The notes beneath the pieces are model-generated. The model was not told the DNA's origin, made no database searches, and worked only from the letters and a program-made list of their open reading frames with translations. From positions 163,783-227,782 of the forward strand of contig PLNT01000007.1 of the NCBI GenBank assembly GCA_003141895.1: DNA of 64,000 nt, in the 5' to 3' direction. The translations under genes and the position numbers were made by a program. Positions 16,568 to 51,432 of this stretch are shown in pieces. This DNA is from Bacteroidales bacterium (lineage in GTDB: Bacteria > Bacteroidota > Bacteroidia > Bacteroidales > VadinHA17). How positions within the stretch are numbered: position 1 is the stretch's first letter; every line of letters begins with the position of its first letter.

Positions 16568-17119
16568 TTAAATTATCAACCTGCTCTTAAAAGGCAGGAA
16601 AGTCATGAAATCGGCATGATGTACAATATATGCCTCGGTTGTTCTTTTAACCAGATCACCTTCATGTGCATGAGCAGCAATAATATGACACACTTCGGGA
16701 GGAATTCCGCACTCTTCAGCTAATGAGACTCCTGAAAATGGATGTCTCAGGTACTGACCATATTTCCCCTGAACAACTTTTTTGGCATCATCCAGCTCAT
16801 ATTCAAGTAATTTACCCACATCTGCCAGTATAGCACCTGAAATAAGGACATCCATGTTAACAGGCAGATCATCACCAAAAAACTCATTCATCTTCTCACC
16901 ACTCGCTTTTGCAACATGAACAACGCATCTCTTATGAGACATAAAGCTTACCTTCAGTTCTGGTCCGCACAAAAGAGTAAACGGGATTTTCTCCAGGTCT
17001 TCCGGTTTCAGAACACTTCTCTCGAGAGCAATCTCCCATGTTTTAGCAGTTTTTTCTCTTAATGTTTTATCTTTGATCCAGTCAAGCTCCGGCCAAAGTT
17101 TTTTTACCTGTTCATTCAT
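16568..17119 (-). CDS. HD-domain protein with substituted catalytic histidine
   Basis: 183-residue protein with an HD/HDIG-like helical core: H68 (VVHVAKASG), ILADVGKLLEY at 97-107, H126 (RHPFSG), H150 (IIAAHAHEGD) and the final HHADFM at 167-172. In the signature dipeptide the histidine is replaced by alanine (A99-D100; codons GCA GAT), while the other candidate metal ligands remain. It may be a phosphohydrolase with altered metal use or a degenerate binding protein. The start is 15 bases downstream of the isocitrate dehydrogenase stop on the same strand, so the pair is probably cotranscribed. Substrate unknown. Confidence 0.75.
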   Translation of the reverse strand: MNEQVKKLWPELDWIKDKTLREKTAKTWEIALERSVLKPEDLEKIPFTLLCGPELKVSFMSHKRCVVHVAKASGEKMNEFFGDDLPVNMDVLISGAILADVGKLLEYELDDAKKVVQGKYGQYLRHPFSGVSLAEECGIPPEVCHIIAAHAHEGDLVKRTTEAYIVHHADFMTFLPFKSRLII

Positions 17120-17134
17120 AAGAAATGGTTTAAA

Positions 17135-18331
17135 TTATTTCAAACCTGCAATTATAGCATCAGTCATCTGCGTTGTTGAAGCGGCCCCGTTCATTATTAC
17201 TTCCGGCCTTCCGGTCATCTTCATCATGTCGTATGTTCTCACCTTGCCTTCAATTATAACGTCAGCTATTGCTTTACGGATTTTAGATGAAATTTTCTTC
17301 TCATCCAGATAATCAAGCATCATACAAGCCGATTCAATCATTGCAATCGGGTTTACTATTGAAACTGCGTAACCTGCATATTTTGGAGCAGATCCATGAG
17401 TGGGCTCAAAAACTGCAATTCCATCGGATGAAAACTGTGCACTGCAGGCAAATCCCAGACCACCAATAAGACCCGCAAATGCATCTGAAGCAATGTCTCC
17501 GAACATATTCCCGGCAACAATCACTCCGTAGTCTTCCGGATTCTTGGTAAGCCACATCATTTGTGCGTCTATATTAGTATTCAGAAGTTTTATATCCGGA
17601 AAAGAATTTCTCTGAATTTCTTTTGCCAGTTTCCACATAAGCCCTGAAGTTTCTCTTATTACATTAGGTTTCTCGCATACTGTAACTGATTTATATCCAA
17701 ATTTTTTCGCGTGCTCAAATGCAGCAATAAGTATTCTGATCGTAGCTTTTCTGGTGAAAATTCTTGTGGATATTGAAAGTTCTTCAACAGGCACTGATCC
17801 AAAATTCGCGGCGAATTTAGGATGTGTCATAAAAGCCTCATAAACCTTTGAGGGTGGGTTTGTCCATTCTACACCCGAATATAAACATTCAGTGTTCTGC
17901 CTGAAAATTACCACATCAACCATCGGTTCATCAATAGTATTGCCTTTACCTCTTCTGACAAAATTGAGTGGATTACCTTTGTATGATTTGCACGGACGAA
18001 CGCAAATATCCAGGTTAAAAAGCTGTCTTAAACTAACTATCGGACTTGAGTATGTAAATCCTATACCCTGAAGATCGGGAGAGAGTTCAGCTTTTGCTTC
18101 ATCAATTGGCTTGGAGGTGATAGCTCCAAAGAGAGCAATTTTGTACTTTTCAATCAGTTTAATAGTTCTTTGCGGTAATGGATTTCCTTCTTTGCACCAG
18201 AATTCCCATCCAATATCGCCATGTATATAATCTGCTTTAAATCCTGCTGCTACAAGTACTCTGATAGATTCATTCAATACTACGGCACCAATTCCATCGC
18301 CAGGTAAAGTAACTATTGTTGGTTTCGACAT
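17135..18331 (-). CDS. Isocitrate/isopropylmalate dehydrogenase family protein, probably isocitrate dehydrogenase
   Basis: 398-residue beta-decarboxylating dehydrogenase. It has the N-terminal LPGDGIG motif, the substrate-binding segments SLRQLFNLDICVRPC and RQNTECLYSGVEW, and GNMFGDIASDAFAGLIGGLG. The cofactor loop HGSAPKYAG carries K317-Y318, the pair that marks NADP+-linked isocitrate dehydrogenases in the E. coli enzyme, where NAD+-linked members have Asp-Ile. So NADP+-dependent isocitrate to 2-oxoglutarate conversion is the best guess. Homoisocitrate or 3-isopropylmalate activity is not excluded, but no leu or lysine-pathway genes are nearby. The HD-domain gene follows on the same strand. 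Confidence 0.85.
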   Translation of the reverse strand: MSKPTIVTLPGDGIGAVVLNESIRVLVAAGFKADYIHGDIGWEFWCKEGNPLPQRTIKLIEKYKIALFGAITSKPIDEAKAELSPDLQGIGFTYSSPIVSLRQLFNLDICVRPCKSYKGNPLNFVRRGKGNTIDEPMVDVVIFRQNTECLYSGVEWTNPPSKVYEAFMTHPKFAANFGSVPVEELSISTRIFTRKATIRILIAAFEHAKKFGYKSVTVCEKPNVIRETSGLMWKLAKEIQRNSFPDIKLLNTNIDAQMMWLTKNPEDYGVIVAGNMFGDIASDAFAGLIGGLGFACSAQFSSDGIAVFEPTHGSAPKYAGYAVSIVNPIAMIESACMMLDYLDEKKISSKIRKAIADVIIEGKVRTYDMMKMTGRPEVIMNGAASTTQMTDAIIAGLK

Positions 18332-20110: not shown

Positions 20111-21664
20111 TTATTTTAATTTTCTCACAACATCAATAACAGTTCCGTCAACCCATTTTATTGCGGCAACAATATCATCCTCAAACTGAGGCTTCTGCGG
20201 CACTCCACAAATCAATTCAGCTTCATCTTTAAGCTCCTTAAGAGTTTTCAACGGCAAGCCTTTGCCCTGAACACTTTCAATAAGGTCCTTTCTGAGCGGA
20301 TTAACAGCAATTCCTCTTTCCGTTATAACAACATCAATCATCTCTCCCGGTCCGCACAAAGTTGTTACTTCATCCACGATGACAGGAATGCGATCGCGAA
20401 AAAGAGGAATCGGAAGGATTACATTTCGCGCATGCAGGCAGTTTTGCCAGCCCCCGATACCGTGAAGCAGGTAGCCATCAGAATGAGTAACCACATTCCC
20501 ATTAAAATTCAGGTCAATCTCAGTGGCACCCAGAATCATAATATCCATCATGCTTGTGAGATTGCCTTTTGAATGATAGTTATAAGCATTGAATACGGAA
20601 TATGGAACATGATTTTGATTATTCTCAATTGATTTCACCGCTTCAAGATCAAACACCTGTGCATCGAGGATAAAATTCATCAACCCGTCTTCAAGCATCT
20701 TTACCATATATTTAGTGCTGCCACCGAATCCGAACTTCGATTTCCATCCCTTGTTTTTAAGGATTTCGCTTATAAATACAGCGATTGCAAGTGATGTTCC
20801 TCCCGCTCCTGCCTGCATGGATACACCATCTTTAAGGATGCCTGATTTTTCGAGAAATGCTGCGGTTAATTCCGCAATCAAAAGTCTGTCGGGACTTTTT
20901 GTTATCTGGGTCGTTCCTGAAATGATTTTTTCAGGAATTCCAATTTTGTCAACAACAACTACATAGTCCACATAATTACCTTCAATTTCCATTGGAAAGC
21001 AGGGAAGATCGATAAGATTGTCAGTTACCACAATAACCTTATCAGCATACATATAATCAGCCTTAGCATATCCCAGGACACCGCATGCTGATGGACCGGA
21101 TGTGCCTTTTGCATTTCCGAAGGAATCGGCTGTCGGAGCAGCAAGAACTGCAATGTCAATTCTCACTTCTCCATCCTGTATCGCCTGCACTCTGCCTCCG
21201 TGTGACCTGAGAACTGCAGTGCCTTTCATTTTTCCTTCGGAAACATATCGACCTAGCGGACCATTCATGCTTCCTTCTATCCTGTTTATTGTACCATCAT
21301 CAAGAAACTTGATAAGTGGTTCGTGGCAGGGAAATGATGCAGAGGGAAACCAGATCAGGTCCTTCACTCCCATAGCCGATGCTAATTCAAATATATGATT
21401 GCTGACAAGATCTCCATCTCTGAGGTGATGGTGGGTCGATATTGTCATCCCGTCACGCAAACCACATTTTCGCAGAGCTTCTTCAAGAGAACTTAGAACT
21501 TTATTGCCGTCATCAGGGAAATCAGCACAGGTTGGTATAACGGGTGAATATTTTCTGCCTTCAGGTTTATGCTTCCCGATTCCTTTAAAAGGGATAACGG
21601 GCTGACCATTAATTTCCAAAGGCACTGATCTGCCTGCCGCATTTTTCACAGTTTTCATCACCAT
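20111..21664 (-). CDS. citF: Citrate lyase alpha subunit (citrate CoA-transferase)
   Basis: Alpha subunit of citrate lyase: swaps acetyl for citryl on the acyl-carrier subunit's thiol. At 517 residues it covers the full family length. Typical features are the [11 protein letters not shown] region, the segment around [46 protein letters not shown], the Gly-rich [13 protein letters not shown] and a C-terminal [10 protein letters not shown] motif. It lies 20 bases downstream of the fused gamma-beta gene and 13 bases upstream of rubredoxin, all minus strand. A second in-frame ATG at 21658 is an alternative start. Confidence 0.95.
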
Positions 21665-21684: not shown

Positions 21685-22899
21685 CTATTCATCTTTTACC
21701 CAGTCAGGAGACAACCGGTTCAAACAAACTGCAAGATCAATTACTCTTTGTGCCCGTGCAACTACCGGAGGATCAATCATTTTTGATCCTAAAGCAACTA
21801 CGCCGAGACCCTTTTGCTTTGCTTCTTCAAAAGCAAGTACTATTTTTTTCGACTTTTCTATTTCAGTTGTGTCAGGAGCAAATCCATCTCTGATCAGAGG
21901 TATCTGCCGAGGATGAATACATCCCATTCCTTCAAATCCAAGAGATTTTGATTCCTTTACTGTAAGTTTTAATGCTTCCATGTCAGCAACGTCAGAAAAA
22001 ACTGAATCTATAGGCTGAATACCCGCAGCTCTTGCCGTAATAATGAGCCGTTGTCGTGCATATAACGATTCCTTACCATCCACAGTTCTTTGAACCCCAA
22101 GATCAGCAGTGAAATCTTCCAAACCTATTGCAATGGCTACAATGCTTCTTGATGAATATGCAATCTTAAATGAGTTCTCAAGTCCAAGTGCACTTTCAAT
22201 AATAGGCATAAGATAAACATCATTGGTCAGATTGAATTTCATTTTAATGCTTTCAATCATTTTTTCTACCTGAAGTATATCTTCTGCATCCTCGCATTTC
22301 GGGATTAAGACCAAATTAACATTATGAGGAATAACAAAATGAAGATCTTCAAGTCCCCTTTTGCCCTGGTTTATTCTAACCATCCTTTCAGCACCATAGA
22401 AATTTATCTGCCTCAATGCATTCCTGACCAGAAGCCTTGCTTCATCTTTCTTTTCAGGCGCGACCGAGTCTTCAAGGTCAAGAATAATTCCATCGGCAGA
22501 ATGAAGACCTGAATTGATCATTAGTCCGGGAGTGTTCCCGGGAAGATATAGTCTGGAAAAACGAAATCTGTGCCGTTCAGTTGAATAATTGTTTTCTTTG
22601 AGAAAAGGTGGAAGGTATTCCTGCTGCGTACTAATCAATTGTTTAACAACTGATTCCAAACGGGCTTCAATTACAAAAGGAAGAGCGCCTGAATCAGTTA
22701 TCTTCACAAATGCATGTTTAATACCAAAAAAATCAAGGACTTCTTTAATCAGGCCTACAATTGAATCGCCATATAGTGATTTGACTTTAGAAATAAGGTC
22801 GATGGATATTCCTCCATCATATCTTAATTCCAGTGCAATTTCGCAATCTGATCTAACCTTGGGTCCGGAATTGCCTGAGATTGCAGCGGAATTTTTCAT
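21685..22899 (-). CDS. citDE: Fused citrate lyase gamma (acyl carrier) and beta subunits, CitD-CitE
   Basis: 404 residues, about 100 longer than ordinary CitE. Residues 1-95 look like CitD, the acyl-carrier subunit: EIALELRYDGGISIDL, a GDSIVGLIKEVL helix, then KITDSGALPFVIEARLES, which matches the CitD signature (T/D-D-x-GAL...ARxE). Ser17 in VRSDCEIA sits where CitD carries the phosphoribosyl-dephospho-CoA group. Residues about 110-404 are CitE (HpcH/HpcI aldolase fold), with RFRFSRLYLPGNTP, GIILDLEDSVAP, MPIIESALGLEN, DFTADLG and GCIHPRQIPLI. CitE cleaves citryl-thioester to oxaloacetate and acetyl-thioester. The accessory genes citC, citX and citG are not in the window. Start ATG 22899. 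Confidence 0.88.
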   Translation of the reverse strand: MKNSAAISGNSGPKVRSDCEIALELRYDGGISIDLISKVKSLYGDSIVGLIKEVLDFFGIKHAFVKITDSGALPFVIEARLESVVKQLISTQQEYLPPFLKENNYSTERHRFRFSRLYLPGNTPGLMINSGLHSADGIILDLEDSVAPEKKDEARLLVRNALRQINFYGAERMVRINQGKRGLEDLHFVIPHNVNLVLIPKCEDAEDILQVEKMIESIKMKFNLTNDVYLMPIIESALGLENSFKIAYSSRSIVAIAIGLEDFTADLGVQRTVDGKESLYARQRLIITARAAGIQPIDSVFSDVADMEALKLTVKESKSLGFEGMGCIHPRQIPLIRDGFAPDTTEIEKSKKIVLAFEEAKQKGLGVVALGSKMIDPPVVARAQRVIDLAVCLNRLSPDWVKDE

Positions 22900-22966: not shown

Positions 22967-23377
22967 TTACGTAGTTTTGTTTTCGCAAAGTTCGATTAAA
23001 ACGCCTGAAGTGGCTTTAGGATGCAAAAAAGCTATATCGAGACCTTCTGCACCCTTCCTGGGTTTGCAGTCAATTAGCCGGATACCCATTTCGGCGGCAT
23101 GTGCCAATTGATCTTCAATCTTTTCCACGGAAAAGGCAATATGATGTATCCCCTCACCCTTTTTTTCAATGAATTTACCAATAGGACCTTCAGGGTCAGT
23201 CGACTCAAGGAGTTCAATTTTTGTCTGTCCTACCTTGAAGAAGGCTGTCCGTACCTTCTGATCAGGAACTTCCTCAATGTTATAGCATTTCAGTCCCATT
23301 ACCTTTTCATAAAAAGCAATAGCTCCTTCAAGGTTTGTAACGGCAATTCCAATATGTTCAATATGAGATGGTTTCAT
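22967..23377 (-). CDS. mce: Methylmalonyl-CoA epimerase
   Basis: 136-residue vicinal-oxygen-chelate enzyme that interconverts (R)- and (S)-methylmalonyl-CoA in the succinate-propionate pathway. It has two beta-alpha-beta-beta-beta modules. Metal ligands are visible as His in IEHIGIAV (about 8), the middle GIHHIAFSV histidine and the C-terminal Glu in GVLIELCE. Length and spacing match the family. It is followed 67 bases later by the citrate lyase genes on the same strand; mutase and carboxylase genes are not in the window. Confidence 0.93.
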   Translation of the reverse strand: MKPSHIEHIGIAVTNLEGAIAFYEKVMGLKCYNIEEVPDQKVRTAFFKVGQTKIELLESTDPEGPIGKFIEKKGEGIHHIAFSVEKIEDQLAHAAEMGIRLIDCKPRKGAEGLDIAFLHPKATSGVLIELCENKTT

Positions 23378-26210: not shown

Positions 26211-27398
26211 ATGAAAATAATCAGTTACGATTGTTTCTCCGGTATCAGCGGAGATATGAATCTGGGGGCAATGATAGATCTTGGTGTCGATCAGGTATTT
26301 CTCACAGGTGAATTAAAAAAACTTAATCTCCCGGGCTGGGAACTAATCGTGTCGAAGGACCAAAGACATGGGATTGTTGGAACCAAGGTCACAGTGAAAC
26401 AAACGAGACATGAACATGCTCACCGTCATCTTTCCGATATTGAAAAGATCATAAATGAATCTTCTCTTGACTTTCCGACAAAAGAGTTAAGCATGAAAAT
26501 ATTCATGAAAATTGCCAGGGCTGAAGCTTCCGTACATGGAATCTCTGTTGATCATGTTCACTTTCACGAGGTGGGAGCAGTCGATTCAATTATTGATGTG
26601 GTGGGTGCTGCAATATGTTTTAATGCTTTAAATGTTGAGGGAGTACATGTTTCCGCTGTAGAACTCGGGGAAGGTTTTGTAATTTGTGATCATGGAAAAC
26701 TTCCTGTTCCGGCTCCTGCGACAGCTGAAATCATAAAGGGAATTCCTGTAAAAAAGGGAGGAGTGGATTTTGAAGCTACAACCCCAACCGGAGCTGCAAT
26801 TCTTGCCACTTTGGGAACTAACTTTAATCCTGATCTGAAAATTAAAATTGAAAAAACCGCCTATGGTGTTGGTCAAAAAGAACATGAGAAAGTTCCAAAT
26901 CTGCTCAGAGTATTCCTTGGTGAAGTATTGACAGATACTTCAGGACACGATGCAATACAGATTGAATGTAATATTGATGATATGAATCCTGAATTCTTTG
27001 AATATATCTCTGAAAGACTTTTTAAAGCCGGGGTCTCCGATGTTTTCTGCTCAAATATAATTATGAAGAAAGGACGTCCGGGTGTACTTCTCAATGTCAT
27101 ATGTGAAAATGAATCAGCTGATGCAGTTAAAAGCATAATTTTCACTGAATCAACATCATTGGGAATAAGAACGTTTCCTTTCAGAAAGGATACCCTCGCA
27201 AGGAAATTTGAAACAGTACCGACCATTTATGGTGATGTTACGGTTAAAAGATCATATTATGACGGAAAAGAGGTTTCATGCAAGCCAGAATATGAAGAAT
27301 GTAAAAAAATAGCCTCAGGCAAAGGAATTCCTGTTAAAGAGGTCTACAATAATATTATGGCAGTGATAAATAATAAAATTATAAAAAAAGATATATGA
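26211..27398 (+). CDS. larC: Nickel-pincer cofactor nickel insertase
   Basis: LarC is the CTP-dependent nickel insertase that completes the pincer cofactor used by lactate racemase and related LarA enzymes. This 395-residue protein starts KIISYDCFSGISGDMNLGA, the family signature. It has a His-rich stretch (HEHAHRHLSD, about 64-73) and VDHVHFHEVGAVDSIIDVVGA (about 117-137). The C-terminal part includes NIDDMNPEFFEYISERLF and MKKGRPGVLLNV. It is one uninterrupted frame, unlike the frameshift-split larC of Lactobacillus plantarum. Its stop overlaps the larB start (ATGA). larA and larE are not in the window. Confidence 0.93.
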   Translation: MKIISYDCFSGISGDMNLGAMIDLGVDQVFLTGELKKLNLPGWELIVSKDQRHGIVGTKVTVKQTRHEHAHRHLSDIEKIINESSLDFPTKELSMKIFMKIARAEASVHGISVDHVHFHEVGAVDSIIDVVGAAICFNALNVEGVHVSAVELGEGFVICDHGKLPVPAPATAEIIKGIPVKKGGVDFEATTPTGAAILATLGTNFNPDLKIKIEKTAYGVGQKEHEKVPNLLRVFLGEVLTDTSGHDAIQIECNIDDMNPEFFEYISERLFKAGVSDVFCSNIIMKKGRPGVLLNVICENESADAVKSIIFTESTSLGIRTFPFRKDTLARKFETVPTIYGDVTVKRSYYDGKEVSCKPEYEECKKIASGKGIPVKEVYNNIMAVINNKIIKKDI

Positions 27399-28141
27399 AT
27401 GCAAAGGAAGTAGAGAAACTGCTTAAAAATGTAAAAAAAGGAGAGACAAGCATCGAGGAGGCTTTGGAAGTGCTAAAAAACTTCCCTTATACCGATCTGG
27501 GTTTTGCCAGAATAGATCATCACCGGGAAATGAGAACCGGTTATCCTGAAATAATCTATTGCGCCGGTAAATCTAAAGAGCAGGTAAGTGAAATTTTCAG
27601 AGTAATGTCGGAGAAAGAAAATAATGTCATTGGTACCAGGGCAAATGAAGAAATGTACGAAGCTGTCAGGAGTATTTTATCGGAAGCTGTATATTACCCC
27701 ATTGCCCGGATTATTTCTTTACAAAAAGTAAAACCTGCAGTTTCAGAAAGTAAAATTGCTATTATCACCGCTGGAACTTCTGATATGCCCGTGGCCGAAG
27801 AGGCTGCAATAACGGCTGAACTTCTTGGGAACAAAGTACTTAGAATCTATGATGCCGGAGTTGCAGGGATTCACAGGCTTGTAGATAAACTTCCTGAGAT
27901 CAGGAACTGCCGTGTCGTTGTGGTTATTGCCGGAATGGAGGGAGCTCTGGCTAGTGTTGTCGGAGGGCTCGTTGATAAACCTGTAATAGCCGTCCCTACC
28001 AGTATTGGATACGGCGCAAATTTCGGAGGTGTTTCAGCTTTACTGGCGATGTTGACCAGTTGTTCTACCGGTGTTACAGTGGTGAATATTGATAACGGAT
28101 TCGGTGCCGGTTTCGCAGCCAGTATGATCAACAAAATGTAG
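27395..28141 (+). CDS. larB: Nickel-pincer cofactor biosynthesis carboxylase/hydrolase
   Basis: LarB carboxylates nicotinic acid adenine dinucleotide and hydrolyses it, the first step of pincer cofactor synthesis. This 248-residue protein has a helical N-terminal part, then an AIR-carboxylase-like domain (about 115-248) with AIITAGTSDMPVAEEAA, VVVIAGMEGALASVVGGL and VPTSIGYGANFGGVSALLAML. Its ATG overlaps the larC stop and its stop shares one base with the GTG of the next gene, so the three are translationally coupled. Confidence 0.93.
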   Translation: MNAKEVEKLLKNVKKGETSIEEALEVLKNFPYTDLGFARIDHHREMRTGYPEIIYCAGKSKEQVSEIFRVMSEKENNVIGTRANEEMYEAVRSILSEAVYYPIARIISLQKVKPAVSESKIAIITAGTSDMPVAEEAAITAELLGNKVLRIYDAGVAGIHRLVDKLPEIRNCRVVVVIAGMEGALASVVGGLVDKPVIAVPTSIGYGANFGGVSALLAMLTSCSTGVTVVNIDNGFGAGFAASMINKM

Positions 28142-44367: not shown

Positions 44368-47300
44368 ATGGATTACAAAGAGAGTTATATAGAGTTGTTG
44401 GAAACAAATAAGAGGTTGGAAAACGAACTTGAATTGATCCGTTCCAAGAGCCTCGAAAAATCTGAGATTATCAGAGAAACAATATTTAAGATCTTTCATT
44501 CTGCGTCCTATCTTATGGCAATAAGTAAGCTGGACACCGGACAGTATGTAGATATAAATGAGGCCTTTAAGAACGCTCTCGGGTACTCAAAAGAAGAGGT
44601 TATCGGACATACCTCAGATGATATACAGCTTTTTGCTGACTTTGAAGAAAGCAATAAATATATAAAACTGATTTCAAAGCTCAGAAGTGTAAAAGATTAC
44701 CCTATCGCATTAAAAACCAAAAAAGGGGAAAAGAGATTTTATCTTTTTTCAGCCGATAGAGTAAATCTCGAAAATGAAGTTTATCTTCTTACTGTTTTTA
44801 CTGAGATGAATTCCAAGGACAGAAAGTTAAAAGACAGTCATGGACGATTGATTGCAGAAATAATAGAAACGGTCAGCAGTTATCTTGCACTCTTCAGTAT
44901 TGACGCTACTAAAAAGTTCTACATTAATGATTTAAACAAAAAAGTAGAAGAAGTAGAACAAATAAAAAGGAAAGATGCAGTTGGGAAATATCTCGAAGAT
45001 ACTCCTCTCATTAACCGCTTAAAACTTGTAGAGCTTCTTAACCATCTTCATCTATCAGGTGATACTCATAAATTAGCTGCTTCACCAAATGGCGATGATT
45101 CGGAAGGGTATTACATGGGATTCCTTCTTTCTTCCGGAAATTTTGCAATAACCTGGGAACCCGGAAATAAGCAAAAGTTTCTTGAAGATTTGAATAAACA
45201 GGGTCTTGCTTTCCGTCAGTTTGCTGATTTGCTGCCTGAAATGGTTTACGAGGTAGACTTAACAGGGAAAGTTGTGTATGCCAATAAGCAGGGACTCAGC
45301 TTTTTCGGATATTCAGAAGAGGATTTGACAACAGGAATAACTATTGCAAATATATTTCCTGATAATTACAAGGAGATGATTAATAATCTCAAAGGATTAA
45401 CTTCACCTGAACAAATATCCAGCAACGAATATTCCGGACTTAAGAAAAACGGAGAACGTGTTCCTGTAGTCACTCATTCCTTCGCAATATTTTATAATGA
45501 AAAAATATTAGGTTACAGAGGCGTGGTAAGAGATATAAGCAAACAAAAAGAATATGAGAATCAGATAATAAGAGAAAAGGCATTTCTTGAGAATTTATAT
45601 AATTCGACACCGGTTGCAATTGCAATAACCAGCCCTTCTGGCATTATTTCAATGATAAACCGTGAATTCACAAATCTTTTTGGATATACTATGGAAGAGG
45701 CTGTGAATAAGAACGTAAACGATCTGGTGGTTCCTGATGAATTAAAGGAAGAAGCTCTGAAAGTAGATAGCCTGGCTTCACTCAATCAGAGAGAAGTAAG
45801 AGAGACAATAAGAAAAGATAAATCAGGAAATAAAATTCATGTCACTCTGGTAGCAACTGCAATAGTCATAAATAATGAAATTGTTGCAAATCTCGTAATC
45901 TACCGGGATATTACAATCGAAAGAAAAAATCAGCTTTTACAGGAAATATTATTTAACATATCAACAGCTGCTCTTAAGCAGTATGATATTAAGGAAATTT
46001 ATCCGATTATTGTGCATGAATTAAGCAAGATATGGGATACAAATAATTTCTTTATAGCACTTTACGATAAGAATTCCGAAACCCTTTCGTTACCATTTTT
46101 TACCGACGAGAAAGACAACTTTTATGAAATTCCCACTAAAAAAACAATTACAGGGTGGGTGATAAATAATAATAAGTCGGTTCTCCTTAAGCAAAAGGAT
46201 CTTAAATATCTCGACGAATCAGGAAATATTGACCTGGTGGGAACACCATGTAAAGTATGGATGGGTGTACCGTTGAAAGTCGAAAGCGAAACAATCGGGG
46301 TGATGTGTCTTCAGGATTACTACAACGAGGACAAGTTCTCACAGGAGGATCTCTATATAATGGATTTTATTGCGAACCAGATTGCTATAGCTCTGCAGCG
46401 AAGGATGATGCTCGATAATATTATTCTTGCAAGGAAGAAGGCTGAAGAAGCTGCCCAGTCGAAGCAATTGTTCATGTCCACAATGAGTCATGAGATCAGA
46501 ACTCCGCTCAATGAAGTTATTGGGATAACAAATCTTTTGCTTCAGGGAAGCCCCCGTGAGGACCAGATGGATTATATCAAAGCTTTGAAATTTTCGGGAA
46601 ATCACCTTCTGACTCTTGTAAATGATGTACTCGATTACAATAAAATGGATTCGGGGAAAATTATATTCGAACAGACACAATTTAATCTCATCGATTTTCT
46701 TGATGAGATAATGAGATCATATTCTTTCAGATCAAAGGCAAAAAATCTGAGTTTCGATATTAAGAAGGAAAATGATCTGCCTGTTGAAGTAATCGGCGAC
46801 CCTATAAGATTAAATCAGATTCTTTCTAATCTTCTTTCGAACGCTCTGAAATTTACTATTCACGGAAGTATTGAAGTGATAGTAAAAGAATTAAGCAGAA
46901 CAGCAAACCAGAGTAACATTGAGTTCTCAGTGATTGATACGGGGATTGGGGTTCCAAGGGAAAAGCATTCGTTAATCTTTGACAGTTTTACTCAGGCTTC
47001 TTCAGATACTACGCGACATTTCGGAGGTACAGGACTGGGTCTGGCTATATGTAAAAAACTGATAGAATTGCAGGGAGGCACAATTGGTATTGACAGTGAA
47101 CCAGAAAGAGGATCAACTTTCAGATTTGAGATAACTTTAGGGATTTCAGAGAAAGGGGCACATCCTGCTGCTGAGGTTCCAGAGAGCTTTTCTGGTCTTG
47201 AAGGCAAAAGAATACTTGTAGCGGAAGACAATAAGATAAATTTCTTTGTTGCCAATAAATTCCTTACCGGATGGGGAATTTATGTTACACACGCTGAAAA

Positions 47301-47571
47301 CGGTCAGCTAGCTCTTGATATTCTTGAAAAAGATGACTTTGATCTCATTCTGATGGATTTACATATGCCGGTCATGGATGGAATTGAAGCTACACGGATT
47401 ATCAGAAAATCTGAGGATCCCAAGATCAAAGATATTCCTATTGTTGCTCTGACAGCGGCAATAATGTCGGAAAACCATGATAAAATTGAGGATCTGAAAA
47501 TTAACGATTATGTCCTTAAACCATTTAAGCCGCATGATCTGTTTGAGAGGATTCTGAAGCACATAAGATAG
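44368..47571 (+). CDS. Cytosolic hybrid sensor histidine kinase/response regulator with PAS and GAF domains
   Basis: 1067 residues from ATG 44368 (a TTG at 44347 would add seven). An N-terminal coiled coil is followed by PAS-like domains at about 35-145, 285-395 and 400-520, with a degenerate one possible at 155-270. A GAF domain spans about 530-690. The HisKA helix has phospho-acceptor H708 in MSHEIRTPLNEVIG. The HATPase_c domain has N-box LSNLLSNALKF and G boxes DTGIGVP and GGTGLGLAI. The receiver domain has VAEDN and D997 (LILMDLHMPVMDG). No membrane segment, so a cytosolic signal is sensed. No regulator or target gene lies beside it, so the output is unknown. Confidence 0.92.
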   Translation: MDYKESYIELLETNKRLENELELIRSKSLEKSEIIRETIFKIFHSASYLMAISKLDTGQYVDINEAFKNALGYSKEEVIGHTSDDIQLFADFEESNKYIKLISKLRSVKDYPIALKTKKGEKRFYLFSADRVNLENEVYLLTVFTEMNSKDRKLKDSHGRLIAEIIETVSSYLALFSIDATKKFYINDLNKKVEEVEQIKRKDAVGKYLEDTPLINRLKLVELLNHLHLSGDTHKLAASPNGDDSEGYYMGFLLSSGNFAITWEPGNKQKFLEDLNKQGLAFRQFADLLPEMVYEVDLTGKVVYANKQGLSFFGYSEEDLTTGITIANIFPDNYKEMINNLKGLTSPEQISSNEYSGLKKNGERVPVVTHSFAIFYNEKILGYRGVVRDISKQKEYENQIIREKAFLENLYNSTPVAIAITSPSGIISMINREFTNLFGYTMEEAVNKNVNDLVVPDELKEEALKVDSLASLNQREVRETIRKDKSGNKIHVTLVATAIVINNEIVANLVIYRDITIERKNQLLQEILFNISTAALKQYDIKEIYPIIVHELSKIWDTNNFFIALYDKNSETLSLPFFTDEKDNFYEIPTKKTITGWVINNNKSVLLKQKDLKYLDESGNIDLVGTPCKVWMGVPLKVESETIGVMCLQDYYNEDKFSQEDLYIMDFIANQIAIALQRRMMLDNIILARKKAEEAAQSKQLFMSTMSHEIRTPLNEVIGITNLLLQGSPREDQMDYIKALKFSGNHLLTLVNDVLDYNKMDSGKIIFEQTQFNLIDFLDEIMRSYSFRSKAKNLSFDIKKENDLPVEVIGDPIRLNQILSNLLSNALKFTIHGSIEVIVKELSRTANQSNIEFSVIDTGIGVPREKHSLIFDSFTQASSDTTRHFGGTGLGLAICKKLIELQGGTIGIDSEPERGSTFRFEITLGISEKGAHPAAEVPESFSGLEGKRILVAEDNKINFFVANKFLTGWGIYVTHAENGQLALDILEKDDFDLILMDLHMPVMDGIEATRIIRKSEDPKIKDIPIVALTAAIMSENHDKIEDLKINDYVLKPFKPHDLFERILKHIR

Positions 47572-47577
47572 GGAGAT

Positions 47578-47599
47578 GACCGCGCAGCGGTCAGGGGGT
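47578..47599. repeat. GC-rich hairpin repeat, copy 4
   Basis: GACCGC-GCA-GCGGTC (47578-47592) followed by AGGGGGT. Together with its flanks it fills the entire 30-base gap between the convergent stops of the histidine kinase and the TPR gene. Same hairpin-plus-AGGGGG layout as copies 1, 3 and 5. Confidence 0.65.
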
Positions 47600-47601
47600 T
47601 A

Positions 47602-48804
47602 CTATTTAATGCAATACTTGCTGATATAATCTGTCACATGTTTATTGCCGAGACTGAAGGATCTTCTGAAATCGTGACAGGCATCTTCAACCTTACCTGA
47701 ATTTAAGAGTGCGATGCCTTTATTAAGCCATGCGTCTGAATTGCCAGGTTTGAGATCGAGCGACATACTATAGTCATTTATCGCCATGTTCCACGATTTT
47801 GACACAAAGTACGCGTCTGCCCTGTCGACATAACATTCTGGATCGTTGGGATGAATCTTCAGATTTTCTGAAAAGTACTGAATAGCCTGAAGATTATCAC
47901 CCGACCTGGCTTCAACTTTCCCGGCCAGACTTAATGCAGCACGATTTTCGGGATATATTTCAATATATCTTTTAATATCACTCAATGCTTTATCTGTTTC
48001 ACCGGTCTTCCTGTAACATTCTGCACGCATCATCAGCAATTCTGCATCTGCTACACCGGAATTTAGGAGCTCTGTATATGTTGCAGACGCTCCTGCCGGA
48101 TCTGATGCTCCGTTCTGGGCCTTTGCCAGTAAACGTAAATATTTTTCATTCCCGGGGTCTGTCTTATTCAGCCCTGTTATCACTTTTATGACCTCAGTGT
48201 ACTTCCCCGAGCCAAGGTTAATCATTGCTTCCGCATAAATTATGTCAGGACTGCTTCCATAATTTTTTTTAAGTTCCGACAGAACTTCTTTTGACTCTTC
48301 TGTTTTTCCGGCTGAGATATAATATTCAATTTCCGAAATGCTTCTTTCAGGAATACTGTACCATTCTTTTTTCCAAAACTGACGCCACTCCTGCCTGTTT
48401 TCGATAGTACTGAAAGCAGGATCTAGCATTACTTCTTTTTCCTGTTTCTTATAATGGGAGTTAAGATTTAATTCAAGATGATAAAGGGCAGTTGATGCAT
48501 CTCCTTTCAATGAGTAAATTCTAGCCAGCCCGTATTCGCCTGAACCAGGAGTTAATTTATTAGCTTCATTCAAATCAGCTATAGCTGCCGAATAATCCCC
48601 CCTCAAGCTGTTTGCTTCTGCTTTTTGTAAATAAATCCGGTACTCATTTTTTTCTGCGAGTGCCCTGTCAAGCATCGTTATGGCCTGCTCAGGTTTTCCA
48701 GCTTCATTAAGTGCTTTTGCCTTAAGAAGATAATCTGCGTCCGGTTGTCCATATATAAAACAGGTGATTAGTAAAACCCAGGAAAATGTTATACTATTCT
48801 TCAT
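47602..48804 (-). CDS. Exported TPR-repeat protein
   Basis: 400 residues. Signal peptide MKNSITFSWVLLITCFIYG, then tetratricopeptide repeats through most of the length (for example ALNEAGKPEQAITMLDRALAE at the start, and AWLNKGIALLNSGKVEDACHDFRRSFSLG at the end). The last repeats with YVDRADAYFVSKSWNMAINDYSMSLDLKPG are the clearest. TPRs mediate protein interactions, so a periplasmic or envelope scaffold role is likely, but no partner is identifiable. The downstream-most gene of a minus-strand pair; the large type IX-secreted protein lies 18 bases upstream and could be its partner. Confidence 0.82.
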   Translation of the reverse strand: MKNSITFSWVLLITCFIYGQPDADYLLKAKALNEAGKPEQAITMLDRALAEKNEYRIYLQKAEANSLRGDYSAAIADLNEANKLTPGSGEYGLARIYSLKGDASTALYHLELNLNSHYKKQEKEVMLDPAFSTIENRQEWRQFWKKEWYSIPERSISEIEYYISAGKTEESKEVLSELKKNYGSSPDIIYAEAMINLGSGKYTEVIKVITGLNKTDPGNEKYLRLLAKAQNGASDPAGASATYTELLNSGVADAELLMMRAECYRKTGETDKALSDIKRYIEIYPENRAALSLAGKVEARSGDNLQAIQYFSENLKIHPNDPECYVDRADAYFVSKSWNMAINDYSMSLDLKPGNSDAWLNKGIALLNSGKVEDACHDFRRSFSLGNKHVTDYISKYCIK

Positions 48805-48822: not shown

Positions 48823-51432
48823 TCATTTAGTACTTTGCTTATTAATCTTACTGTCAGCTTCAGTGATGACATGCACAAATCCGGAAAGATGGAGCACCTG
48901 AACCCCTGAAACCCCGTTCTCATAAACAACACACTCATAAAAATATACACCCGGAGATACTATCTTTCCATTATATGTGCCATCCCAGTTAATTTTAGGA
49001 TCTGCTGTCATGAACAATAATAAACCATCCCGGTTAAAAAGTTTAAAATCAATTTTCTCAACCAACCCCGATGTTTTTGCAACCAGTTTATCATTAATAT
49101 TATCCCCGTTTGGCGTAAAAACATTCGGGATCTCATAAAAATTGCATGAGTCAACACAAATGACTGAAGATCTAGCACTTTCATTCCCAACGGCATCAAT
49201 GGCAGAAACCGCATAACAAGATGAAATGGTTTCACCGGGAAAATGCTTGTAAGAGAAAACATTTTTATCATTTATTGTCAGCAGCAAAGTGAGACTATCT
49301 GCAGATTTCAGCTTGGAATAAATCTTATAACCTGCTACATCCTGAAAACAGACCGGATCAGTAATCGCCCACGAAAGATTATTGTATAAGCTGTCACATT
49401 TGCTAACAACTTTAAGAGTAGGCGTACAGGGGGCTTCATTATCAACAGGCGTCGTGCAGGTGATTTCAGAAAAATTTATGAGATTCTTTGGCGAATTTAA
49501 GGACTGGTATCCACCAATTGATTTTACGTAATAGCAGTACTGAGTACCATTTGCCAGACCATCATCGATAAATGTAAGCTGATTTGTTGTTCCAATTGAA
49601 TCATAAGCATTTGTTGCATTGTTCAACCTGAAAAAATCATATCTTGAATTGATCCATGGAACGTTGCGGTTTATTGTAAATCGTGCCTTTTTATCTCCCG
49701 GAAGTATTGACAGGAATACAGATGACGCAAAACCAGGGTCCCCGATGAGAAACCGTGTTGCTCCGTTATTATATAAATCAATTCTGTAAATATATCCTGT
49801 TGAAGAAGTATTAATCAGAGTATCGATAAAAACAGTATCATTAAGATTTGCTGTTTGTATAGATTTTATCTGTTCAAAATTTGTTCCTCCAACTCCGGTT
49901 GCCCTGTAAATCAGATATTCATATGGACCTAACGCAGGAATTGTATCCAGCTTGTCAGGTTTTTTCCATGCAAGGAAAATTGAACCGTTTACAGGATCTG
50001 TTTTTCTTACACTTACGTTTTTGATAATGGGTAATCCCGAGACAAGTGTCGACGTAATCTCATTTGAAGCTTTGCTTTCCGCTCCATTTGGGAACACTGC
50101 AACAATCCTGTAAGTATACTCTTTACCGAATTGAAGTCCCTGTCCATTATCATTATCACGATATGTTGTTGTGGAACTGCCGGCAATATTTCCTATTTTG
50201 ACAAAGCCTGTTGATGAAGGGATACCTGCAGTGCAAGAATCGGGTTTGAATGTAGAGGGTCCCTCCCGCCGGTATATATTGAATCCCGTTATTATATTAC
50301 TAATATATCCGTTCCAGGTTAATCTGACAGTCTTACTCTCAGGAACAGCCGTAAGGATATGAGGGGCAGGACCGAGAACGGTAATATTCATATTATTAAT
50401 ATCGGAAAGCTTGACATCAGGATTTGAATCATCCGACTTAAAGATTACATTATATGGTTGTTTCCTGACAGCTTCAAAACAAGGAACCCATGTGAACCTC
50501 CCCGATGCAAATCCGGCGACAGAATCCACCTTTGTAAATGTTGCTTTACAGGCCGGAAGGGTAAAAACACCTGATGTTGCTTTTAATGTTAAAAAATCTT
50601 TGTCAGGATCTGTCGCAGTAAATGTAAAATTTACGGTCTGACCTGCCTCAACACAATAATTATGAAGAGGTCCATTTACCGGAGACTTATTATTGGTATT
50701 GAAAACCTCTATCTGCATGTCGCGTTCCACGATTGCTATTTTCTTTCCGTTTCGCCATTTCGCTATATCCATGGCTACATTAAATTTGCCAGTGTCTGCA
50801 GGTGTATTCCATATTAGATCACCGCTTATAGAGTCTACTCTTATTGAACTGGTTGCAGGTGGTAAAGTGTAACCTTCGATTGCTTTGGCATCCTCACGTG
50901 TACAAACTGCGAGATTATATGACAGGCTGTCTCCGTCAGGATCAAAGGCTGAAGGATTATGAATGAATAAATGATGATAAGCTGCTTTATCATATGGAGG
51001 GTTAAGCAGTACCGGAGTACTCTCGTGCCCCATTGAAGGGTAAACTGTCAAAATCGTCGAAATTGAAAAAACAACATTAACTGAGTTGGGAATGTTTTTT
51101 ACACCTGCATTCCTGTTGGGATCCTGCATCACTATTTTGTATTCCCCCGGACCAGGATAAGTATGATCCCAGATATAAATATTTCTTCTGTAAAAGTTTG
51201 GGAGTGTCAGCATACTGTTTCTGGGTACTGTTGTCATAGATTTGTCTCCCCAATCAATATCAAGTGTAGGCCGGTCCGCATAACTTAGAGTATAGGTGTA
51301 AGTTGTTAATGTGACCCTGAAAGTTAAGTCGGACAATTGAACATAGGTGATTTCACCAGCCCTGTTATGCGTGGCATATAGATTAGCAAAACAAAATGAT
51401 ACCAGTATCAGTAAAATAAATTTCTTTGCCAT
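48823..51432 (-). CDS. Large secreted protein with Fn3/PKD-like repeats and type B T9SS sorting domain
   Basis: 869 residues from ATG 51432 (MAKKFILLILVSFCFANLYA, signal peptide). A TTG at 51465 would add 11 residues. The mature start THNRAGEITYVQLSDLTFRVTLTTYTYT is typical of CHU-type large surface proteins. Several Ig/PKD-like and fibronectin-III modules follow. Residues about 770-869 are the C-terminal sorting domain (IPNVFTPNGDNINDKL, FKLFNRDGLLLF, INWDGTYNGKIVSPGVYFYE). Exported by the type IX system and probably surface-attached; adhesion or gliding is the usual guess. It shares this sorting domain with 5673-7166. Followed 18 bases later by the TPR gene. Confidence 0.9.
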   Translation of the reverse strand: MAKKFILLILVSFCFANLYATHNRAGEITYVQLSDLTFRVTLTTYTYTLSYADRPTLDIDWGDKSMTTVPRNSMLTLPNFYRRNIYIWDHTYPGPGEYKIVMQDPNRNAGVKNIPNSVNVVFSISTILTVYPSMGHESTPVLLNPPYDKAAYHHLFIHNPSAFDPDGDSLSYNLAVCTREDAKAIEGYTLPPATSSIRVDSISGDLIWNTPADTGKFNVAMDIAKWRNGKKIAIVERDMQIEVFNTNNKSPVNGPLHNYCVEAGQTVNFTFTATDPDKDFLTLKATSGVFTLPACKATFTKVDSVAGFASGRFTWVPCFEAVRKQPYNVIFKSDDSNPDVKLSDINNMNITVLGPAPHILTAVPESKTVRLTWNGYISNIITGFNIYRREGPSTFKPDSCTAGIPSSTGFVKIGNIAGSSTTTYRDNDNGQGLQFGKEYTYRIVAVFPNGAESKASNEITSTLVSGLPIIKNVSVRKTDPVNGSIFLAWKKPDKLDTIPALGPYEYLIYRATGVGGTNFEQIKSIQTANLNDTVFIDTLINTSSTGYIYRIDLYNNGATRFLIGDPGFASSVFLSILPGDKKARFTINRNVPWINSRYDFFRLNNATNAYDSIGTTNQLTFIDDGLANGTQYCYYVKSIGGYQSLNSPKNLINFSEITCTTPVDNEAPCTPTLKVVSKCDSLYNNLSWAITDPVCFQDVAGYKIYSKLKSADSLTLLLTINDKNVFSYKHFPGETISSCYAVSAIDAVGNESARSSVICVDSCNFYEIPNVFTPNGDNINDKLVAKTSGLVEKIDFKLFNRDGLLLFMTADPKINWDGTYNGKIVSPGVYFYECVVYENGVSGVQVLHLSGFVHVITEADSKINKQSTK

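Follow-up and report, generated by a model that had tools for sequence, protein, structure and literature searches.

A CitD-CitE fusion protein of Bacteroidota with arginine in place of the prosthetic-group serine, in genomes where CitX and CitG were not found

Citrate lyase is a textbook enzyme that needs a dedicated, covalently bound CoA-like arm and three helper proteins. CitF swaps acetate for citrate on this arm and CitE cleaves the citryl-ACP, while the arm itself is provided by CitG and CitX and acetylated by CitC, according to the portions of PMC10798043 that were available. The locus described here, in a window from a Bacteroidales bacterium (the window being the whole stretch of 64,000 nucleotides that was analysed), raises the question of what becomes of such an enzyme when its acyl-carrier and lyase subunits are encoded as one protein. 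A preliminary description of the locus had proposed that citD and citE are fused in one gene. This was borne out: the plus strand of 21685-22899 is stop-rich and the open frame lies on the minus strand, as an ORF that matches PF06857 and PF03328 in one frame. The gene and its two domains are as follows.

21685..22899, minus strand: citDE fusion gene (P0001), 404 aa (ORF and translation; PF06857, PF03328, TIGR01608, TIGR01588)
22600..22899, minus strand: CitD-fold domain, residues 1-100 (PF06857, AF2 model, VIA-align match to 5vit_C)
21730..22569, minus strand: CitE-like lyase domain, residues 111-390 (TIGR01588; Foldseek matches to malyl-CoA lyases and human CLYBL)

The CitD pattern ascribed to the N-terminal part is there, PF06857 matching residues 17-87 (E 3.4e-15, 56.5 bits, cut-off 25.1) and TIGR01608 (citD) matching residues 16-87 with 59.0 bits, slightly below its equivalog cut-off of 63.5. 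The remainder had been called a complete CitE, which holds for its length but not for its class. PF03328 (HpcH/HpaI aldolase/citrate lyase) matches residues 117-330 at 3.6e-50, and TIGR01588 (citE) matches residues 111-390 over positions 1-283 of its 288, with 263.7 bits against a cut-off of 443.4; the CitE part is therefore a full-length CitE homologue that is not a TIGR01588 member by the NCBI threshold. AF2 models, built from alignments of the window protein with 67 of 80 related loci (A1) or 49 of 80 (A2), have a pLDDT of 93.6 and a pTM of 0.90 for the whole protein (68 sequences) and a pLDDT of 92.8 for the CitD domain folded alone. The top VIA-align row for the CitD-domain model is 5vit_C (Z 10.5, rmsd 2.1, 83 aligned; next row Z 8.8), a chain that ranks second in Foldseek and that we take to be the acyl carrier MdcC. 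The rows below it in both searches seem to represent a common arrangement. The 5vit entry is the Pseudomonas malonate decarboxylase hetero-tetramer, whose chain C has 97 residues. Designed beta-trefoils, which are the best PDB-sequence profile matches of the CitD domain, were taken as chance. For the CitE part, the nearest solved structures in Foldseek are malyl-CoA lyases and human CLYBL. A separate complete citD elsewhere in the window's own genome (96% complete), a possibility that the preliminary description had raised together with a loss of Ser17 among homologues, was rejected on the lack of a second PF06857 match there, and Ser17 is conserved in nearly all fusions (see below).

The fusion had also been suggested to be a conserved and distinct architecture, and this view is upheld both by its relatives and by a survey of the phylum. 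The best 80 of 292 relatives were kept, which are the nearest by construction (60-79% identity); blastp recovered the frame in all 80 loci, and both domains lie in one frame in 79 of them, the exception being L015, which matches from residue 38 only. As a check independent of the fusion, PF06857 was searched over 392 genomes drawn from the phylum. It was found in 39 of these, every match lying in a fusion-size frame of 377-455 aa, and a stand-alone CitD-size PF06857 frame was found in none of the 392. Sequences were read for 30 of the 39 genomes, the other nine being known by frame length alone. The domain is uncommon in the phylum (39/392), and the matches besides the window's own genome are all classed as same phylum, i.e. 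outside its class, while at least five survey genomes of its order and at least 15 of its class gave no PF06857 match. Our guess is that the other-class loci are largely Ignavibacteria. Its recurrence in 79 of the 80 loci, and in 39 genomes of the phylum draw, led us to reject a frameshift or an assembly artefact as the origin of the fusion. Phage records gave no CitDE match, and plasmid matches came from 63 records, all below 60% identity, with those listed annotated as citD or citrate lyase ACP/gamma. Six canonical loci were taken from the plasmid matches.

The central observation concerns the site at which the arm would be expected, which we take to be Ser14 of canonical CitD, the first serine of a Ser-x-Asp motif. 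The motif VRSDCEIA with its Ser17, to which the preliminary description had drawn attention, is present as written, but the column of the modified Ser14 is occupied by Arg16, with Ser17 adjoining it.

22852..22854, minus strand: Arg16 codon, in the column of the modified Ser14 of canonical CitD (DNA, alignments)
22849..22851, minus strand: Ser17 codon, adjoining the canonical site (DNA, alignments)

The N-terminal S-x-D of canonical CitDs reads TLESGD in E. coli and TLESSD, TIESSD or SLESSD in the six others, and fusion CitD domains have R-S-D at the same place. This register is given by TIGR01608, in which CitDE residue 16 falls on profile position 14, and by both a MAFFT alignment of seven canonical CitDs with 21 fusions and two-way profiles, which align R16 with the first serine and S17 with x. 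Across 110 fusion rows, from which a second copy of the window's own protein (L001) was removed, position 16 is R in 106, K in one, S in one and a gap in two, i.e. Arg in 106 of 108 readable rows, versus Ser in 7/7 canonical CitDs. Columns 9, 16 and 74 are the only ones in the CitD domain to reach the class-switch threshold, the last being P in 97/110 fusion rows versus D in 7/7 canonical CitDs. Position 17, counted in 111 rows that include the window's own protein twice, is S in 108, Ala in one (L086) and a gap in two, and in the AF2 models Ser17 sits at the end of the loop preceding strand 19-25, one residue off the canonical site. Because it is near-invariant, some role for Ser17 is possible, and its conservation could mean that it is still modified via some other route. 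Individual loci depart from the common pattern. L083 (in G224) reads Ser-Ser-Asp like a canonical CitD, but neither CitX nor CitG is over cut-off in its genome; L086 (in G344) has Arg-Ala-Asp, so that Ser17 is not conserved in every fusion; and L108/L135, in the single-contig genome G188, is a citDE frame without the N-terminal R-S-D stretch, which is a broken or shortened gene.

Genes for making and attaching the arm were sought in 63 fusion-bearing genomes, comprising the 39 from the phylum survey and 24 reached through the loci, and in 14 control genomes. Neither CitX (PF03802) nor CitG (PF01874) was found over cut-off in any of the 63, some of which are MAGs of untold completeness, with weak sub-cut-off matches (E up to 1) in 16 and two genomes, respectively; profile searches of the window's own genome returned neither. 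Among the controls, E. coli is over cut-off for both families and is the sole one of the 14 over cut-off for CitX. In the canonical cit stretches that were fetched, citX is present in six of seven; that of L. fermentum, the exception, has citC and citG. CitC (PF08218) is not found over cut-off in the window's own genome. PF08218 does score over cut-off in 27 of the 63 fusion genomes, but these matches were rejected as evidence of CitC because they all lie in frames of 161-185 aa, covering the first part of the profile, and because the best of them, the one match checked, is CoaD (TIGR01510, 201.5 bits). Control genomes over the PF08218 cut-off include B. subtilis, and by this profile a CitC may still be present in some of the 63. 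We regard the change from serine to arginine and, with it, the lack of CitX and CitG as the strong results of this sequence-based analysis. They argue against the suggestion that Ser17 carries the prosthetic arm and, with the serine of the site replaced by Arg, against that of a fixed 1:1 tether holding the arm beside the lyase; with Arg16 in the Ser14 column and CitX and CitG missing, the supposed tether is probably a fusion whose arm was lost.

The third subunit is encoded next to the fusion.

20111..21664, minus strand: citF, homologue of citrate lyase alpha (CoA/ACP transferase), 517 aa (TIGR01584, PF04223)

Window CitF starts 20 bp downstream of citDE and scores above the equivalog cut-off of TIGR01584 (515.7 bits, cut-off 501.45), with a PF04223 match at 2.9e-140. 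It is the gene right after citDE in 71 of 81 loci (the window and the 80 relatives), with a median gap of 17 bp when starts are set at the first ATG. Of the other ten loci, three end at a contig edge (L024, L025 and L030), L053 continues into a cut frame with a CitF-like beginning, and six (L028, L061, L064, L076, L079 and L082) have no adjoining citF but a CitF in each of their genomes. PF04223 is over cut-off in 68/68 genomes (the 63 fusion genomes and five more), in two of which, G135 and G294, CitF is in pieces. In G294 there are three pieces, one of them with a stop codon. In this genome (L133) and in G342 (L145), citDE and citF are separated by a frame of 860-879 aa. When one CitF longer than 480 aa was taken per locus (81 of 99 loci) and compared with six of the seven canonical records, the L. 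fermentum record being without a listed citF, fusion-type CitFs were found to have H394, L400, H401, W406 and N408 in 80-81 of 81, versus G, R, G, H and D in 5-6 of 6 canonical CitFs. The CitE part likewise has R116 in 110/110 fusions versus M in 7/7 canonical proteins. The residues peculiar to fusion-type CitFs at 394-410 and 504-505 would be consistent with an altered site for the acyl carrier or the substrate.

citDE-citF also has recurring neighbours. Three of those in the window matter here.

17135..18331, minus strand: isocitrate/homoisocitrate-dehydrogenase-like gene, 398 aa (PF00180, active-site residues; conserved near citDE-citF)
16568..17119, minus strand: HDIG-type protein, 183 aa, beside the IDH-like gene (TIGR00277, 2.8e-7, 30.3 bits, cut-off 27.6)
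22967..23377, minus strand: methylmalonyl-CoA epimerase gene (mce), upstream of citDE (TIGR03081, 157.8 bits, cut-off 114.95)

The HDIG-type protein has no Pfam match, and it accompanies the IDH-like gene in two distinct arrangements. In the Bacteroidales-type order, mce is followed by mmdA, oadG, a biotin carrier gene and oadB, then by citDE, citF, an M20 gene in the opposite orientation, the IDH-like gene and the HDIG gene. The block from mmdA to oadB, of the Na+-pumping decarboxylase type, separates mce from citDE in some of the loci, e.g. L034 and L044, and in the window tblastn at 1e-5 gave no match for mmdA, oadB, oadG or the biotin carrier, nor for LarE-like, PrpD-like or homoaconitase-like proteins. 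Among the 81 loci, many of which are short, mce is found in 51, the IDH-like gene in 43, the HDIG gene in 39 and oadB in 21. The 18 other-class loci all have citF; a PrpD-like gene is found in 15 of them, the HDIG gene and an aconitase-like gene in 14 each, and the IDH-like gene in 13. The CitDEF locus is thus tied to an IDH-like gene and an HD protein, and in other classes also to aconitase/PrpD-like dehydratases. One genome, G330, has a single-strand run made of a three-subunit 2-oxoacid:acceptor oxidoreductase, the IDH-like, HDIG, aconitase-like, LeuC-like and LeuD-like genes, CitDE and CitF; the alpha subunit of the oxidoreductase is above the cut-off of the VorB (3-methyl-2-oxobutanoate) subfamily and the beta and gamma subunits are below their cut-offs. 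Dehydratases are paired within one run in L130 (PrpD-like and aconitase-like) and in G330 (two aconitase-family genes), the aconitase-like neighbour in G124 matches the homoaconitase model TIGR00139 with 874.1 bits (cut-off 529.9), and the best models for the IDH-like gene are AksF homoisocitrate dehydrogenases, far under cut-off. Upstream of citDE, two genes at 26211-28141 on the plus strand, which presumably resemble LarC and LarB of lactate racemase maturation, stand back to back with DUF362 and ferredoxin-type genes, an order that recurs in relatives.

The window's own genome has in addition a standard gltA-icd-acn cluster, with citrate synthase (45996-47186), IDH (47346-48536) and aconitase (49432-50763) on contig C45. 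On another contig, C23, it has tandem genes of the aconitase/homoaconitate-hydratase family (179360-182500, L209; 593 and 610 aa), a pair that occurs also in G395, G398, G403 and G408 and is possibly the dehydratase pair of the same pathway as the CitDEF arm. At the residues compared with E. coli Icd, to which we assign catalytic or NADP-site roles, the window IDH-like protein keeps S113, R119, R129, R153, Y160, K230, D283, D307 and D311, as well as H339, K344, Y345, V351 and Y391, whereas Asn115 is replaced by Ile and Arg395 by Lys. In view of the standard gltA-icd-acn set, of these substitutions and of the homoaconitase match in G124, the CitDEF arm may handle citrate in a different direction or act on a homologue of citrate instead. 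Citrate synthase (PF00285) is present in 39/39 phylum-draw fusion genomes (the window's own and the other 38), but was not found in 13 of the 24 loci-derived MAG genomes (G398-G401, G403-G410 and G412), whose completeness is untold. In the four of these 13 that were examined (G398, G403, G407 and G408), the IDH-like gene is the only PF00180 (Iso_dh) match. One of them, G407, has no aconitase-family match at E 1e-20, which makes it a misfit with a complete arm there.

Since the attachment site is lost and the arm-making genes are missing in the genomes examined, CitDE and CitF would probably work with ordinary free coenzyme A. The simplest scheme for an enzyme that has lost the serine, CitG and CitX while retaining CitF and the lyase domain would have free acetyl-CoA as the carrier. 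We infer that CitDE and CitF form a citrate-lyase-type enzyme without the covalent phosphoribosyl-dephospho-CoA arm, a reading to which we give a probability of about 0.5. In such an enzyme, CitF would load citrate (or one of its close homologues) onto CoA in exchange for the acyl group of acetyl-CoA, so that acetate and a free CoA thioester are formed; cleavage of this thioester in the CitE domain would then yield a 2-oxo acid (oxaloacetate in the case of citrate) and regenerate acetyl-CoA. The CitD domain would be retained as a structural adaptor or as a non-covalent CoA-binding piece, and activation by CitC, CitX and CitG would not be needed because the carrier would be ordinary CoA. We would not class CitDE-CitF as a citrate lyase in the strict sense, although it probably acts like one. 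It might also be one end of a second, paralogous arm from citrate to a 2-oxo acid, with the dehydratases and the IDH-like enzyme. That the solved structures nearest to the CitE part, CLYBL and malyl-CoA lyases, act on free CoA esters speaks for the use of free CoA, although this likeness does not discriminate because PMC3832036 (2013), in the parts consulted, notes the lack of a structure for a true CitE. The near-invariance of Ser17 and the serine at position 16 in L083 speak against it.

Free-CoA chemistry could also act on a different substrate, a citrate homologue such as homocitrate (or citramalate), in a route of 2-oxo-acid elongation or shortening. Several of the observations above lean this way, namely the homoaconitase match in G124, the AksF models that come out best for the IDH-like protein (albeit far below cut-off), the two different dehydratases per run in L130 and G330, the VorB-type alpha subunit in G330, which does not pass a 2-oxoglutarate cut-off, the separate gltA-icd-acn cluster and the Ile at Icd Asn115. 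We nevertheless consider a homologue the unlikely substrate, as CitF is over the citrate lyase alpha equivalog cut-off, and the IDH-like protein keeps Ser113, the other catalytic residues compared and four of five NADP-site residues (R395 being Lys), and no other protein matches Iso_dh in the four examined MAGs without citrate synthase. Still more doubtful, in our judgement, is an ordinary citrate lyase in one chain, with the CoA-like arm on Ser17 attached by an unrecognised enzyme. The retained CitD fold, the serine in 108 of 111 rows and its place at the loop end, next to the canonical site, would all suit such a protein, but in the Ser-x-Asp register the site is occupied by Arg, L086 has Ala17 and no CitX or CitG family member is over cut-off in 63 genomes.

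The absence of PF00285 from 13 of the 24 loci-derived fusion MAGs, all 13 of which have CitF, brings up yet another explanation, in which CitDE-CitF runs in the making direction and turns oxaloacetate and acetate into citrate in genomes that lack citrate synthase. This we hold to be very improbable, for citrate synthase is present in 39/39 phylum-draw fusion genomes, the window's own included, G407 is without an aconitase-family match and the MAGs are of untold completeness; the equilibrium of citrate lyase, moreover, favours cleavage at low oxaloacetate. A citramalate lyase, though conceivable, was not chosen, glutamate mutase being absent among the annotated recurring neighbours.

Comparison with known systems sets the fusion apart from each of them. 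It resembles the citrate lyase CitDEF (EC 4.1.3.6, with CitC/CitX/CitG) in having a CitF over the equivalog cut-off, a full-length CitE-like lyase, the CitD fold and the order D-E-F, and it differs in that D and E are one protein with CitD and CitE parts below the NCBI equivalog cut-offs, in that the modified serine is Arg and in that CitX and CitG were not found. The L115 locus of Peptoclostridium acidaminophilum, beside glmS/glmL, we take to be a CitDEF-type citramalate lyase of glutamate fermenters. It shares three homologous activities, and its CitE is marginally the closest of the seven compared to the window CitE domain (43.3%; the other six 35.8-42.5%), but unlike the fusion it has a separate citD bearing the canonical serine, plus citX and citC, and neither glutamate mutase nor methylaspartate ammonia-lyase is among the annotated recurring neighbour families of citDE loci. 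Free-CoA CitE-like lyases, such as human CLYBL, malyl-CoA lyase and RipC/citramalyl-CoA lyase, share the fold and the lyase family, the resemblance being one of fold only, and CitDE is unlike RipC in scoring 152.6 bits with NF038242 against a cut-off of 375. To our knowledge, these lyases have neither a CitD-like domain nor a CitF partner. Dimroth and Eggerer, as cited in PMC6232273, reportedly worked on isolated subunits. Characterised CitE-like enzymes outside citrate lyase use free acyl-CoA, as stated in the available parts of PMC3832036. In Geobacter bemidjiensis, citrate lyase encoded by citCDEFXG has been proposed to serve a reverse TCA cycle with a reversible isocitrate dehydrogenase and a 2-oxoacid oxidoreductase, enzyme types found beside CitDEF in G330, but that organism has all of the maturation genes and encodes CitD separately, as far as the accessible portions of PMC2996986 go. 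Within the open PMC literature, subscription papers being outside its scope, we found no description of a CitD-CitE fusion or of a prosthetic-group-free citrate lyase, and neither is described in the parts consulted of PMC3534657, PMC5460018, PMC10798043, PMC6593406, PMC3832036, PMC4682846, PMC6232273 and PMC2996986.

A wider reading of the locus, which we put forward tentatively, is that the arm was discarded in each lineage of the phylum in which the fusion was found. The fused carrier would have become a non-covalent CoA adaptor, and free citryl-CoA, or a homologue, would pass from CitF to CitE. With the PrpD/aconitase-like and IDH-like enzymes and, in one genome, the 2-oxoacid:ferredoxin oxidoreductase, CitDE-CitF would then form half of a TCA cycle (or of a homologous cycle) that is self-contained, reversible and independent of ATP, beside the standard set. 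If the use of free CoA is correct, the retention of a carrier domain after the loss of its arm and helpers would show how such an arm is dispensable, and it would call for caution in predicting an ordinary citrate lyase in organisms unable to activate one. It would also suggest that central metabolism in Bacteroidota includes an arm for citrate (or a homologue) that has gone unrecognised.
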